Assembly (NCBI RefSeq): GCF_016595415.1
Contig: NZ_JAENIO010000003.1
Location: 124,001-188,000 of the forward strand
Source of the DNA: Roseibacillus ishigakijimensis
Lineage (GTDB): Bacteria > Verrucomicrobiota > Verrucomicrobiia > Verrucomicrobiales > Akkermansiaceae
Direction: 5' to 3'
DNA: 64,000 nt
This document shows, one piece after another, positions 35,247 through 45,844 of this stretch. The translations under genes and the position numbers were made by a program. How positions within the stretch are numbered: the stretch's first letter is position 1; each line of letters opens with the position of its first letter. Under the pieces are notes generated by a model. It was given only the letters and a program-made list of their open reading frames with translations. It was not told where the DNA came from and did no database searches.

Positions 35247-36104
35247 ATGGCAAAAATTGCGCTGATTCAAGGCGAAAACAAGGGTTCGCGGGAGGAGAAT
35301 GTGGCTTGGACGGTGGAGCAAATCCGGCGTGCGGCGGCAGAGGGAGCGGAAATTGTCTGCACGCAGGAATTATTTACCACCAGCTATTTTTGCACGGTGG
35401 AGGATCCGGATTTGTTTGATTTGGCGGAGTCGATACCGGGGGAGACGACTGAGGCGTTGTGCGAGGTGGCCGCTCTCTGTGGGGTGGTGGTGGTGGGAGC
35501 GCTCTTCGAACGGCGGGCGGCCGGGGTCTACCACAATACCGCCGTGGTGATTGATGCCGATGGTTCGCTTCTGGGGACTTATCGCAAGAATCACATTCCA
35601 CAGGATCCTGGTTTTGAAGAGAAATTTTATTTCACTCCCGGGGATCAGGGTTACCCGGTTTGGAAAACGAAATTTGGCACTATCGGGGTCTTGATCTGTT
35701 GGGACCAGTGGTTCCCGGAAGGGGCGCGACTGATGGCGCTGGCAGGGGCGGAGATCCTCTTTTATCCCACCGCCATTGGTTGGTTGCCGGAGGAAAAGGA
35801 GGAGCTTGGCGCGGGTCAACACCATGCCTGGCAGACCGTGCAGTGTGGTCATGCGGTGGCCAATGGTTGCTACGTGGCGGCGATCAATCGGGTGGGCCGC
35901 GAGGACGGCACCGAGTTTTGGGGGCAGAGTTTTGTCAGCGACTTCATGGGGCGGGTGGTGGCCCGGGGCTCGGTGGATCAGTGCGAGATCGTGACGGTGG
36001 ATTGTGATCGGCAGGCCTTGGAGGATCATCGCCGCTGGTGGCCATTCTTCCGGGATCGGCGCATCGAGACTTACCGCGATCTGGGCCAGCGGTGGCTGGG
36101 TTAG
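35247..36104 (+). CDS. aguB: N-carbamoylputrescine amidase (nitrilase superfamily)
   Basis: The 285-aa enzyme converts N-carbamoylputrescine to putrescine, CO2 and ammonia in the agmatine route to polyamines. The nitrilase triad is visible: E41 (CTQELF), K114 (YRKNHIP) and C151 (LICWDQWFPE). The blocks GTYRKNHIPQDPGFEEKFYFTPG, PTAIGW and AAINRVGRE are typical of AguB rather than general omega-amidases. The ATG at 35247 sits at the usual family start (MAKIALIQ). It is divergent from brnT and convergent with argF. Confidence 0.93.
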   Translation: MAKIALIQGENKGSREENVAWTVEQIRRAAAEGAEIVCTQELFTTSYFCTVEDPDLFDLAESIPGETTEALCEVAALCGVVVVGALFERRAAGVYHNTAVVIDADGSLLGTYRKNHIPQDPGFEEKFYFTPGDQGYPVWKTKFGTIGVLICWDQWFPEGARLMALAGAEILFYPTAIGWLPEEKEELGAGQHHAWQTVQCGHAVANGCYVAAINRVGREDGTEFWGQSFVSDFMGRVVARGSVDQCEIVTVDCDRQALEDHRRWWPFFRDRRIETYRDLGQRWLG

Positions 36105-36235
36105 GAAAAAGAGGCGGCGGGCCTGCCGGGCCACAACCGCTTGTCATTTTGAGGGGAAAGACCTGCCTCCCGATCGCTCTGGGGATTTGCCCCGATTCGA
36201 TTCGCCAGGGGGAGTGACGGGTCTGGGCTTATCCG

Positions 36236-37132
36236 CTATCTGGCGAGGGTGGCGAGGACCGCCTTTTGGGCATGGAGTCGGTTCTCTGCTTGCTGGAAGA
36301 TGACTTCGGCCTGTTTTTCCAGAACATCTTCGGTGATTTCTTTTCCCCGGTAGGCGGGCAGGCAGTGGAGGACGAGGTGTCCTTCACTCGCTCCCGAGAG
36401 GAGGTTTTCATTGACCTGATAGGGCCCGAAGAGGGCCTCCTTCTCAGTTTGACCCTCCTGGCCCATGGAGAGCCAGACATCGGTATTGATGACGGAAGCG
36501 CCTTGCACGGCGGCGGCGGCATCGGTGCCCACGCTCACATTGGGAGCGTCCAGCTTGGCGAGGAAATCCGCAGGCGGGAGGTATTCCTGCGGGCCGGCCA
36601 CCGCCAGTTCGAAGCCGAGGTGTTTGGCGGCCCACATCCAGGAGATGGTCATGTTGGAGAAGCCGTCACCGATGAAGGCGACCTTTTGCCCCTCCCAAGT
36701 GCCCAGGCGCTCGCGAATGGTCAGTAGATCGGCCAGAATCTGGCAGGGATGCTCGTCATCGGTCAGGGCATTGATGGTGGGGATTTTGCTGAAGGCGGCA
36801 AATTCCACGACATCTTCCTGGGCAAAGGTTCGAATGATGGCTCCATGCACCATGCGGCCGAGAACCCGGGCGGTGTCTTTGATGGGTTCGCCACGACCGA
36901 GCTGAATCTCGGTCTTGGACAAGAACATGGGAGCGCCTCCCAGCTCGCGCACTCCGACCTCGAAGGAAGCCCGGGTGCGGGTGGAAGCTTTGGTGAAGAT
37001 CAGTGCCCACGTTTGCCCGGCAAGAGGTTGGCTGGGGTGGCGACCGCGGGTGGCTTTCATCTCGACCGCGAGATCGATGAGTTCGCTGAGCTGAGCCGCT
37101 GAAAGTTCTTCGATGGACAAAAGATTGTTCAT
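36236..37132 (-). CDS. argF: Ornithine carbamoyltransferase
   Basis: This 298-aa cytoplasmic enzyme makes citrulline from ornithine and carbamoyl phosphate in arginine biosynthesis. The carbamoyl-phosphate loop S50-T-R-T-R is intact. The later motifs DDEHPCQILADLLT and HCLPAYRGKEI mark an OTCase rather than an aspartate or acetylornithine carbamoyltransferase. The ATG at 37132 (MNNLLSIEELS) is the natural start. No other arg genes are adjacent. Confidence 0.95.
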   Translation of the reverse strand: MNNLLSIEELSAAQLSELIDLAVEMKATRGRHPSQPLAGQTWALIFTKASTRTRASFEVGVRELGGAPMFLSKTEIQLGRGEPIKDTARVLGRMVHGAIIRTFAQEDVVEFAAFSKIPTINALTDDEHPCQILADLLTIRERLGTWEGQKVAFIGDGFSNMTISWMWAAKHLGFELAVAGPQEYLPPADFLAKLDAPNVSVGTDAAAAVQGASVINTDVWLSMGQEGQTEKEALFGPYQVNENLLSGASEGHLVLHCLPAYRGKEITEDVLEKQAEVIFQQAENRLHAQKAVLATLAR

Positions 37133-37268
37133 AAATTGGGGAAGGGAAAGGAAGGAGGGACCATGGCGGATGGCGGGGACAGAAGCAAGAACTAGTGACC
37201 TTTGTCCCCCAGGAAGGGAGGGGGAGCTCCGGGAGGTCGCCAAGATTCCGCAGTGGGGCGGGAGGGAC

Positions 37269-39689: not shown

Positions 39690-40874
39690 ATGAAACGACG
39701 AGAGGCTTTGACATTGGCCGCAGGAGGGCTCGGCTTGGCAGCGGGGTGCCGCAAGAAAGAAGAAAACCCTCCTCCCATGCCGGGGGAAAGCCGGTCGGTG
39801 GAAGGGCCTGCGAGTGAAGCTCCCGAAGGCTGGGACTTGGAGCCGGTGCGGGTGGAGCGAGCGCGGCAGATCCGGACGGTGGTGGGCTTGCGGCCCTTCC
39901 GCCCGGCTGGCTTTGTGGTGCGGCGGGAAGAGCGCGGAGAGAAGGTGCTGATCCATAATTACGGTCATGGCGGAGGGGGAATGTCTCTCTCCTGGGGTTC
40001 GGCTCATCTTGCCTGTCGAGAGGCCGGGGACCTGGCCGGGCGCTCTTGTGCCGTGGTTGGCGGAGGGGTGATGGGCTTGAGCACGGCCCGACTGCTGCAG
40101 CAGCGGGGCGCGCAGGTGACGCTCTATACCCGGGCTCTGCCACCGGAGACCACCTCCAATATCGCGGGCGCGCAATGGTGGCCGGTCTCTGTTTTTGACG
40201 GGAGCCGCCGCAGTGAGTCTTTTGGCCGCCAATTTGTCGAGGCGGCGCACTTTGCCCACCGCTATTTCCAGAATCTCGTGGGTCCTCAGTGGGGGGTGCG
40301 CTGGTTGCCGAACTACTACCTGAGCAATCGCGCCCCGGCCAATGGCTGGATCGATGGACCTGGCGGGGTCTTGCACGACCTGCAAGTGGGGTTCCGCGAT
40401 TTCGCTCCCGGGGAGCATCTGTTCCCCTCCGCTTATGTGCGGCGTTTTCATTCCATGCTCATCGAGCCCGCCACCTATCTCGCCCGCTTGCTGGCAGAAG
40501 TGCAGGGAACAGGGGCCAGGGTGGTGGTGCGCGATTTCACCAGCGCGGATGAAGTCCTCGCCTTGCCGGAGGCCCTTATTTTCAACTGCACGGGACTCGG
40601 GGCCGGGCCGCTCTTTGGAGACGGGGAATTGATGCCCATCCGGGGGCAGCTCTGCGTGCTACTGCCGCAGCAGGAGGTGAACTACAATTTGATTAGTGGG
40701 CTCCATTACATGTTTCCCCGCGCGGATGGGGTCATTTTGGGCGGAACTTACGACCGGGGTCGTCAGGATTTGCCGCCCGATAGCGGGGATAGCGATCGCA
40801 TCTTGGCCGGGCACGAGGCGATCTTCCGGCAATTTGGTGAGAACCTGGCCGCTTACCGTCGACAGCTGGGGTGA
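39690..40874 (+). CDS. FAD-dependent D-amino-acid-oxidase-like lipoprotein, circularly permuted
   Basis: The 394-aa protein begins at ATG 39690 behind a good AGGAAG ribosome site. Residues 1-20 carry an RR pair and a lipobox (LAAGC20), so a Tat-exported lipoprotein is likely. The FAD-binding Rossmann motif is G124-G-G126-VM-G129, followed by the DAAO-like TTSNIAGAQWWP. Later blocks are NCTGLGAGPLFGD, IRGQLCVLLP and GVILGGTYDRG. The normally C-terminal DAAO block (GLRPFRPAGF, then HNYGHGGGGMSLSWG) lies at residues 66-103, ahead of the Rossmann motif. The frame is unbroken. Flavin oxidation of a D-amino acid or other amine is predicted; substrate unknown. ADH and SDR genes follow on the same strand. 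Confidence 0.85.
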   Translation: MKRREALTLAAGGLGLAAGCRKKEENPPPMPGESRSVEGPASEAPEGWDLEPVRVERARQIRTVVGLRPFRPAGFVVRREERGEKVLIHNYGHGGGGMSLSWGSAHLACREAGDLAGRSCAVVGGGVMGLSTARLLQQRGAQVTLYTRALPPETTSNIAGAQWWPVSVFDGSRRSESFGRQFVEAAHFAHRYFQNLVGPQWGVRWLPNYYLSNRAPANGWIDGPGGVLHDLQVGFRDFAPGEHLFPSAYVRRFHSMLIEPATYLARLLAEVQGTGARVVVRDFTSADEVLALPEALIFNCTGLGAGPLFGDGELMPIRGQLCVLLPQQEVNYNLISGLHYMFPRADGVILGGTYDRGRQDLPPDSGDSDRILAGHEAIFRQFGENLAAYRRQLG

Positions 40875-44347: not shown

Positions 44348-45844
44348 TTACTCGGACTGGCCGGTGATGAATTCGACCAGATCGGTGCGCATCTTGATGA
44401 TGTCGGGCTCGTTGAGATAGAACATGTGCCCGGCTTCATAATAGGTGTAGCTGATGCGCTCGCGGCTCTCCTTCGGCAGGTCCACCAGTTGATCGAGGGT
44501 GTATTCGATGCCGCTCGGGGGGGTGGCGAAGTCGGTGTAACCGCCCATCACGAGCAGGCGGAGGTTGGGATTCTCGGTCATGGCGTCCTGCAAGCGGTCG
44601 GCGACGTTCACAATGCTGTTCTCGGCATCCCAACGCCAGGGATGCACCTTTCCCGTCAGAATGCGATAGGGGTGGTGGATGTCCTGGCCGCCAAGGTCCT
44701 CGCTAAGGTAGGCGAGCATGGCGGTGGAAAACGCTCCGTAGGCCACCGCATAAGAGGGATCGTAGGAGGGGTAATCACTGTCTTTGGACTGGGCGGGCCA
44801 GGCCACGCGGGCATCGAAGCGACCGAGCACCTTCCCTTCCGCCCGCAGCAGCTCGCGGCGGTAGCGGGTGGGCGACAGGCGTAGATTGGTCTCGACCCAG
44901 AGGGCGGCAGGAACCCCGGTGAGGGCGGAGAGACGCTCGGCCATGGCCTCCACTTCCCCCTCGCTGAGGCGGGAGCCGACAAAAAGGGCCCGGGTGTAGT
45001 CGCCCGCCGCCAAGGCATAGGCTTGCTTGAGCAGCTCATCGCGATCGCCGGAGATTTTGCCATGATGATGGGCCACTGCCGTCATGGCGGGGAGATAGAC
45101 TTGGTTCATCAGGTAGTTGCCTTGGCTCGCCCGCAGCGTGCGGAAGTCGAGGAGAGAGGAGAGCATGACCACGCCATTTAGGCTCATGCCGTATTCCGAC
45201 TGCAGATGCTCGGCGAGTCCTGCGGCCCGAATCCCTCCATAAGATTCTCCGAGAAGGTATTTGGGCGAACTCCAGCGCTTGTTCTCCGTCGTCCACCGCC
45301 GAATGAAGTCGGCCACCGACTCGATGTCGCCATTCAGTCCGTGGAACTGGCCCTTGGTCTTGTCCTCCTTGGGTCGCGAGTATCCCGTGGAAACCGGGTC
45401 AATGAAGACGAGGTCGGTGACATCAAGGATGGAGTGGGGATTGTCGATGAGGGTCACTGGCGGGGGCAGGGTTTCAGTGCCGTCCTTGCTGGTGGGGACG
45501 AGCTTGGGACCAAGGGCTCCGAGGTGCAGCCAAACCGCAGAGGAACCCGGGCCACCATTGAAGGCAAACATCACCGGCCGATCCTTGTCGCCCTCTTCCT
45601 TTTTCACATAGGAGACATGGAAAACCGAGGCCCGTTCCTTGCCATCGTCCTCCTTGAGAACCAAGGTGTCGGCAGTGACGGTGTAGGAGAGGGTCGCGCC
45701 TGCAATCTCGACCTCAGCCTCGACGGGGGCGAGACTGATCTCGGCGGATTCAGGCTTTTTCTCCTCCTTCTTATCCTTCTCCTGAGCGGATAATGGGAGG
45801 ATGAGGCAGGAGGCGGTGAAGAGAGCAAAGGTGGTTATTTTCAT
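44348..45844 (-). CDS. Serine carboxypeptidase, peptidase family S10
   Basis: The 498-aa exported enzyme has a signal peptide (MKITTFALFTASCLILPLSA) and an acidic-basic linker. The alpha/beta-hydrolase core of S10 peptidases follows. The oxyanion/substrate block is NGGPGSS (96-102), the nucleophile is S201 in GESYGG, the Asp is in GGYTDFATPP and the His in EAGHMFY. S10 enzymes release C-terminal residues from peptides at acidic pH. Bacterial forms of this length are common in verrucomicrobia and acidobacteria. It probably acts in the periplasm. About 100 bases separate it from the helical-repeat gene. Confidence 0.92.
   Translation of the reverse strand: MKITTFALFTASCLILPLSAQEKDKKEEKKPESAEISLAPVEAEVEIAGATLSYTVTADTLVLKEDDGKERASVFHVSYVKKEEGDKDRPVMFAFNGGPGSSAVWLHLGALGPKLVPTSKDGTETLPPPVTLIDNPHSILDVTDLVFIDPVSTGYSRPKEDKTKGQFHGLNGDIESVADFIRRWTTENKRWSSPKYLLGESYGGIRAAGLAEHLQSEYGMSLNGVVMLSSLLDFRTLRASQGNYLMNQVYLPAMTAVAHHHGKISGDRDELLKQAYALAAGDYTRALFVGSRLSEGEVEAMAERLSALTGVPAALWVETNLRLSPTRYRRELLRAEGKVLGRFDARVAWPAQSKDSDYPSYDPSYAVAYGAFSTAMLAYLSEDLGGQDIHHPYRILTGKVHPWRWDAENSIVNVADRLQDAMTENPNLRLLVMGGYTDFATPPSGIEYTLDQLVDLPKESRERISYTYYEAGHMFYLNEPDIIKMRTDLVEFITGQSE

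Follow-up and report, generated by a model that had tools for sequence, protein, structure and literature searches.

D-amino-acid oxidase (DAAO), a textbook flavoenzyme whose structure and applications have been written about extensively, has in its canonical order the FAD Rossmann motif at the N-terminus and the block that carries the substrate-binding and GHGG residues at the C-terminus. Human D-aspartate oxidase (DASPO; 6rkf) and mammalian DAAO (1dao, 2du8) share with the protein described here the FAD Rossmann motif, the TTS..A..W.P region, the GLRPxRP substrate arginine, the HNYGHGG flavin loop, and the fold of its residues 118-381, whereas this protein has the C-terminal block at its N-terminus, together with a Tat/lipobox-like signal. 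Among the canonical-order prokaryotic relatives that were found, the nearest are bacterial DAAO-like proteins (L055-L061, from the search group of L003, and L083-L085, from Tsukamurella, Streptomyces, and Nocardia), which share these motifs but differ in their canonical order, in having no recognised export signal, and in their place on the opposite side of the tree. The ThiO glycine oxidase, MnmC, and other PF01266 enzymes belong to the same superfamily, but the permuted protein falls far under the NCBIfam cut-offs (46 bits vs 250.8), and the fold match is more distant (Z 16-18). A survey of bacterial DAAOs (PMC9844085) does not mention permutation.

The gene analysed here lies in a stretch of 64,000 nucleotides of Roseibacillus ishigakijimensis (hereafter, the window), where ORF reading finds an uninterrupted frame of 394 amino acids from the ATG at 39690 to the TGA at 40872-40874 (Table 1). 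An earlier interpretation of the letters alone, the sequence-only reading, had claimed a continuous frame from signal to stop, and both this frame and the motif positions that it gave are borne out, with GLRPFRP at residues 66-72, HNYGHGG at 89-95, and GGGVMG at 124-129. The first two motifs are contained in the relocated block, in which R68 corresponds to DAAO R283 and G95 to DAAO G313, and the canonical order is reversed.

Table 1. Parts of the permuted gene and of its product, in positions of the window.
Feature	Position	Strand	Basis
Permuted DAAO-type FAD oxidoreductase gene, 394 aa	39690..40874	+	ORF, Pfam, phmmer, rotation
Putative twin-arginine signal with lipobox-like cysteine, residues 1-20 (RR 3-4, C20)	39690..39749	+	Homologue conservation
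Low-complexity tether, residues 21-47	39750..39830	+	Homologue alignment; model confidence low to residue 41
Relocated block, residues 56-111, homologous to the C-terminal part of DAAO/DASPO	39855..40022	+	phmmer, PF01266, profile-profile
Short linker, residues 112-118, from the former C-terminal helix to the former first strand	40023..40043	+	Homologues; model
Main part, residues 119-381, from the GGGVMG Rossmann motif (124-129) to the equivalent of DAAO 269	40044..40832	+	phmmer, superposition
New C-terminal tail, residues 382-394, variable among homologues	40833..40871	+	

The DAO profile of Pfam (PF01266) matches the protein with 114.2 bits, against a curated cut-off of 27.9, and its best stretch places residues 121-384 on profile positions 3-302. 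In a six-frame search of the genome, positions 301-351 of the profile were found upstream and positions 3-302 downstream, in the same frame. When the N-terminal block is moved in silico behind the C-terminus, a single stretch is obtained over positions 3-351 (115.4 bits), and the rotated sequence gives single full-length alignments to the fungal and yeast enzymes 1c0i, 7ct4, and 9vpf. Similarly, the best match of phmmer among the solved structures is human DASPO, in two stretches of swapped order, in which residues 119-373 lie on positions 14-265 of the chain (i-E 1e-18) and residues 55-111 on positions 274-333 (i-E 2.8e-6), and pig DAAO presents the same picture.

The collection of homologues that the sequence-only reading had called for yielded 80 distinct proteins, 68 with the permuted and 12 with the canonical order. 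When the profile of the former was compared with that of the latter, the main part aligned with columns 3-258, at an E of 1e-48, and the N-terminal block with columns 259-314, at an E of 1e-21, so that the pieces adjoin at 258/259 with no overlap, while the best of 20 column-shuffled comparisons of the block reached an E of 0.06. Given the swapped stretches of phmmer and PF01266 and the profile-profile match set against its shuffled controls, the swapped order is far beyond chance. The collinear segments cover the fold once, with a single C-block in each protein, as expected of a natural permutation, and the break in the canonical chain falls near DAAO residues 265-274, where the new termini lie. 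The piece that moved is longer than the approximately 50 residues first proposed, comprising some 60-70 (DAAO about 266/270 to 330).

An AlphaFold model predicted from five sequences (pLDDT 77, pTM 0.78) permitted the superposition on human DAAO that had also been proposed, in which model residues 118-381 match DAAO 1-269 (249 residues, 2.2 A, Z 21.5), and the same residues superpose on DASPO as well. The N-terminal block is modelled as three strands followed by a helix (60-70, 75-82, 85-92, and 96-112), an arrangement compatible with the DAAO C-block. It was by the order of these elements that the position of the block, the refuting test set by the sequence-only reading, was compared, the sequential aligners having covered residues ~113-383. 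In the model, this helix would run on into the Rossmann strand (119-123), and the helix-to-strand linker is 5-13 residues long in 66 of the 68 permuted homologues, as delimited by the boundaries of the HMM matches. With the swapped pieces, the homologues from four phyla, and the fold of residues 118-381, the central claim of a circular permutation of a DAAO-type enzyme is strongly supported, and it is very highly probable that the protein belongs to the D-amino-acid/D-aspartate oxidase group as a natural circular permutant.

Of the DAAO and DASPO residue numbers used here, R283 and G313 were checked against printed alignments. The substrate-arginine motif of the family, (G/T)xRPxRP, is present, and R68, the counterpart of the arginine that binds the substrate carboxylate, is found in all 68 permuted proteins, as are P69, G92-H93-G94-G95, W102, and G103, while the equivalent of R68 occurs in 12 of the 12 canonical ones. 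A PROSITE-like DAO signature (PS00677, [LIVM]2-H-[NHA]-Y-G-x-[GSA]2-x-G-x5-G-x-A) lies at residues 87-105 of this protein, and the signature occurs in its strict form in 33 and in a relaxed form in 67 of the 68 permuted proteins.

By contrast with DASPO, the permuted protein would have no equivalent of R216, the side-chain-binding residue, which falls at N333 when counted back from Y340, in a loop of uncertain alignment. Y340 itself corresponds to DAAO Y228, the active-site tyrosine, and is a tyrosine in only 33 of the 68 permuted members. Y332 (66/68) and F245 (68/68) are conserved among the permuted proteins, and neither is the common residue among the canonical ones. Given the conservation of Y332, the retention of the Y228 equivalent in about half of the members, and the lack of R216, the lid of the pocket probably differs from those of DAAO and DASPO, as far as the alignments indicate. 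The retained carboxylate-binding arginine speaks for a substrate of the alpha-amino-acid type, and the differences in the lid region argue for a specificity distinct from those of both enzymes.

Twin arginines, a hydrophobic stretch, and a cysteine are all present in the N-terminus, MKRREALTLAAGGLGLAAGC, which would fit the Tat lipoprotein pattern, with a weak match at the -3 residue of the lipobox (A). Ten homologues all share R3, R4, and G19, and nine of them have C20, while 52 of the 68 permuted proteins have RR followed by [GASN]C, such that the Tat/lipobox N-terminus of the sequence-only reading is both present here and common in the family, and the export of a folded FAD protein by Tat would be a sensible interpretation. 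On the other hand, the further claim that the permutation implies a periplasmic or surface oxidase is not supported. The deepest split among the permuted proteins separates L017, L077, L078, L080, L138, and L140, which, with the exception of L140, have no recognisable twin-arginine signal, and export and permutation are therefore best seen as separate traits.

The explanation that we consider likely overall is that of a permuted FAD enzyme of the DAAO/DASPO group, which would be exported and would oxidatively deaminate D-amino (or similar) acids. As the sequence shows, the ancestral C-terminal block (the strand of the substrate arginine, the strands after it, and the HNYGHGG flavin loop with its helix) now precedes the Rossmann strand through a linker of ~7 residues. 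The fold would close as in DAAO, rebuilding the R68/G95/FAD site in cis, and the protein would acquire its FAD and fold in the cytoplasm before being exported by Tat and anchored by a lipid. A hydride would then be taken from a D-amino acid, or a closely related alpha-amino acid, held by R68, with the imino acid product being hydrolysed to a keto acid and ammonia, and the flavin may be reoxidised by O2 or by a periplasmic electron carrier. That the protein is an FAD enzyme with an amino-acid-type substrate is rather probable, and that this substrate is specifically a D-amino acid is only marginally favoured. No activity or solved structure was found for any permuted member.

The same permuted fold may, in a tentative alternative, serve a different chemistry, as a periplasmic FAD dehydrogenase that passes electrons to cytochrome c, and not to O2, with an N-substituted, cyclic, or other alpha-amino acid as its substrate, such as the proline-like products of S9/S15 peptidases. 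Such an enzyme would fit with the invariant carboxylate arginine in the company of putative lid residues that differ from those of DAAO and DASPO, with the S9 or S15 peptidases that adjoin the permuted gene in four loci (L081, L112, L113, and L122), and with the c-type cytochrome gene (L081 7011-7496) that starts just after the permuted gene in the Kozakia baliensis plasmid pKB14400_3, which suggests an electron-transfer partner. However, this is the only one of the 50 neighbourhoods scanned in which an adjacent ORF has a cytochrome profile (in L101, heme-type CXXCH motifs occur in an ORF about 1.2 kb away), and among solved proteins the nearest relatives are genuine D-amino-acid oxidases. A broader version, just as tentative, is that of an unrecognised and ancient permuted lipoprotein family of single origin, with a lid of its own, made up of exported amino-acid dehydrogenases that feed periplasmic carriers; if true, the natural permutation of a textbook flavoenzyme would have founded a new enzyme family.

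The preferred reading of a deaminating enzyme of the DAAO/DASPO group can also be set beside the other genes of these loci, which vary widely between lineages. A conserved operon was considered and discarded, given that most of the apparent neighbour clusters are shadow ORFs of the permuted gene and the real neighbours are diverse. The S9 or S15 peptidases named above would also fit this reading, through a use of peptides or amino acids, as would the amino-acid permease that adjoins the gene in L120 and the cytochrome c of Kozakia. In L121 the neighbour is a flavin amine oxidase, and a thiamine-diphosphate enzyme adjoins the gene in the rhizobial members (L077, L078, and L082) and in Nonomuraea (L080), which may possibly reflect a conserved pathway. 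In the window, a zinc alcohol dehydrogenase and an SDR lie downstream and a divergent beta-helix protein upstream, and these neighbours do not point to D-amino acids. As a whole, the neighbourhoods lean weakly towards the use of peptides or amino acids.

Rather than rebuilding the site in cis, the N-terminal block may complete the active site of another subunit by domain swapping, in an obligate oligomer. Oligomers are common in the DAAO group, and the 5-residue linkers of some members could favour swapping, but this arrangement is improbable, as the single-chain model is fairly confident over both the block and the main part (pTM 0.78) and the length of the linker suits a direct connection from helix to strand.

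Permuted homologues were found in Verrucomicrobiota, Acidobacteriota, Pseudomonadota, and Actinomycetota, a spread that is a lower bound, with the genome searches covering the groups around the window, L002, and L003. These searches recovered the same order in the family and order of the window and, from a sample of 247 genomes around L003 (a MAG of Acidobacteriota), in 20, and, for the Hyphomonadaceae locus, in 13 of 289 genomes of its class and 18 of 349 of its phylum. The plasmid collection added members from Rhizobium, Bradyrhizobium, Mesorhizobium, Niveispirillum, Kozakia, and the actinomycete Nonomuraea, and the phage records had no match. The distribution is patchy, given that the permuted gene is absent from the three other genomes of the genus of the window that were searched.

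In a maximum-likelihood tree of the un-permuted sequences, all the permuted proteins lie on one side of a single branch (support 98/94, 98% of the bootstrap trees), and this grouping indicates that they have one origin. The permuted order is taken as derived because the other DAO proteins of the source genome match PF01266 in the usual order, while the sequence of the early events is uncertain, with a midpoint root and few canonical sequences. Circular permutations can arise by tandem duplication, fusion, and the trimming of the ends, and this one probably followed such a route, with both ends trimmed, although none of the 80 proteins is an intermediate with the block at both ends. The alternative of convergence, either through several unrelated permutation events or through a chimera of the DAAO C-block with another FAD protein, could draw on the very large size of PF01266 and on the identity of the main part to DAAO of only about 26%, but it is very unlikely, given the single group just described and the fact that DASPO and DAAO are the top-scoring proteins for both pieces. 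An artefact of assembly or gene calling, with two fragments joined in the wrong order, has a practically negligible probability, with nothing found in its favour, and the assembly rearrangement that the sequence-only reading had seen as fatal to its claim is ruled out by the identical order of the 68 distinct proteins, which come from genomes and plasmids independent of one another, some of the genomes (G021 and G282, for example) being single contigs.

No NCBIfam model covers the permuted proteins that were tried, PF01266 reports them as if they were truncated (the best stretch has about 300 of 353 positions), and the plasmid annotations of the permuted genes give only an FAD-dependent oxidoreductase. 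The open-access literature, with subscription journals mostly outside this scope, yielded no relevant link of circular permutation to D-amino-acid oxidase, D-aspartate oxidase, or D-amino-acid dehydrogenase, and the permuted DAAO family has no earlier description in the open-access papers and family models searched. A natural permutant that keeps the catalytic arginine and the flavin loop in 68 of 68 members would show where the fold can open and would supply further exported enzymes as new candidates for D-amino-acid catalysis, together with a clean case for the study of how permutations arise and spread. It also exposes a gap in annotation, in both the apparent truncation and the lack of NCBIfam coverage.

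Some genomes have several permuted paralogues. G359 has four (loci L039, L062, L064, and L101), and G318, which also holds the Acidobacteria MAG locus L004, has three (L021-L023), one with an in-frame TGA. In the Mesorhizobium onobrychidis plasmid pOM4, the permuted gene (L082 5926-6989) is annotated as two overlapping CDS and looks frame-broken. Two loci (L011 and L012, matching residues 83-148 of the query) were tried as a second permuted family and rejected as Rossmann matches similar to glutamyl-tRNA reductase, by sequence reading.

Finally, the surroundings of the gene include several other features. The permuted genes with their thiamine-diphosphate neighbours span 4500-8726 in L077, 4363-8690 in L078, 5926-8788 in L082, and 7027-8679 in L080, with no signal recognised in these permuted proteins, and two of the rhizobia also have an FAD-binding oxidoreductase neighbour, which is of the berberine-bridge type in L077. 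The Kozakia cytochrome gene is part of a run in which serine hydrolases and the S9 peptidase are accompanied by a second FAD oxidoreductase. In the window, a probable exported S10 serine carboxypeptidase (PF00450) is encoded near the permuted gene, at 44348-45844, and a nitrilase/carbamoylputrescine-amidase-like gene (+) faces an ornithine/putrescine carbamoyltransferase-like gene (-) at 35250-37243, as read from their sequences.
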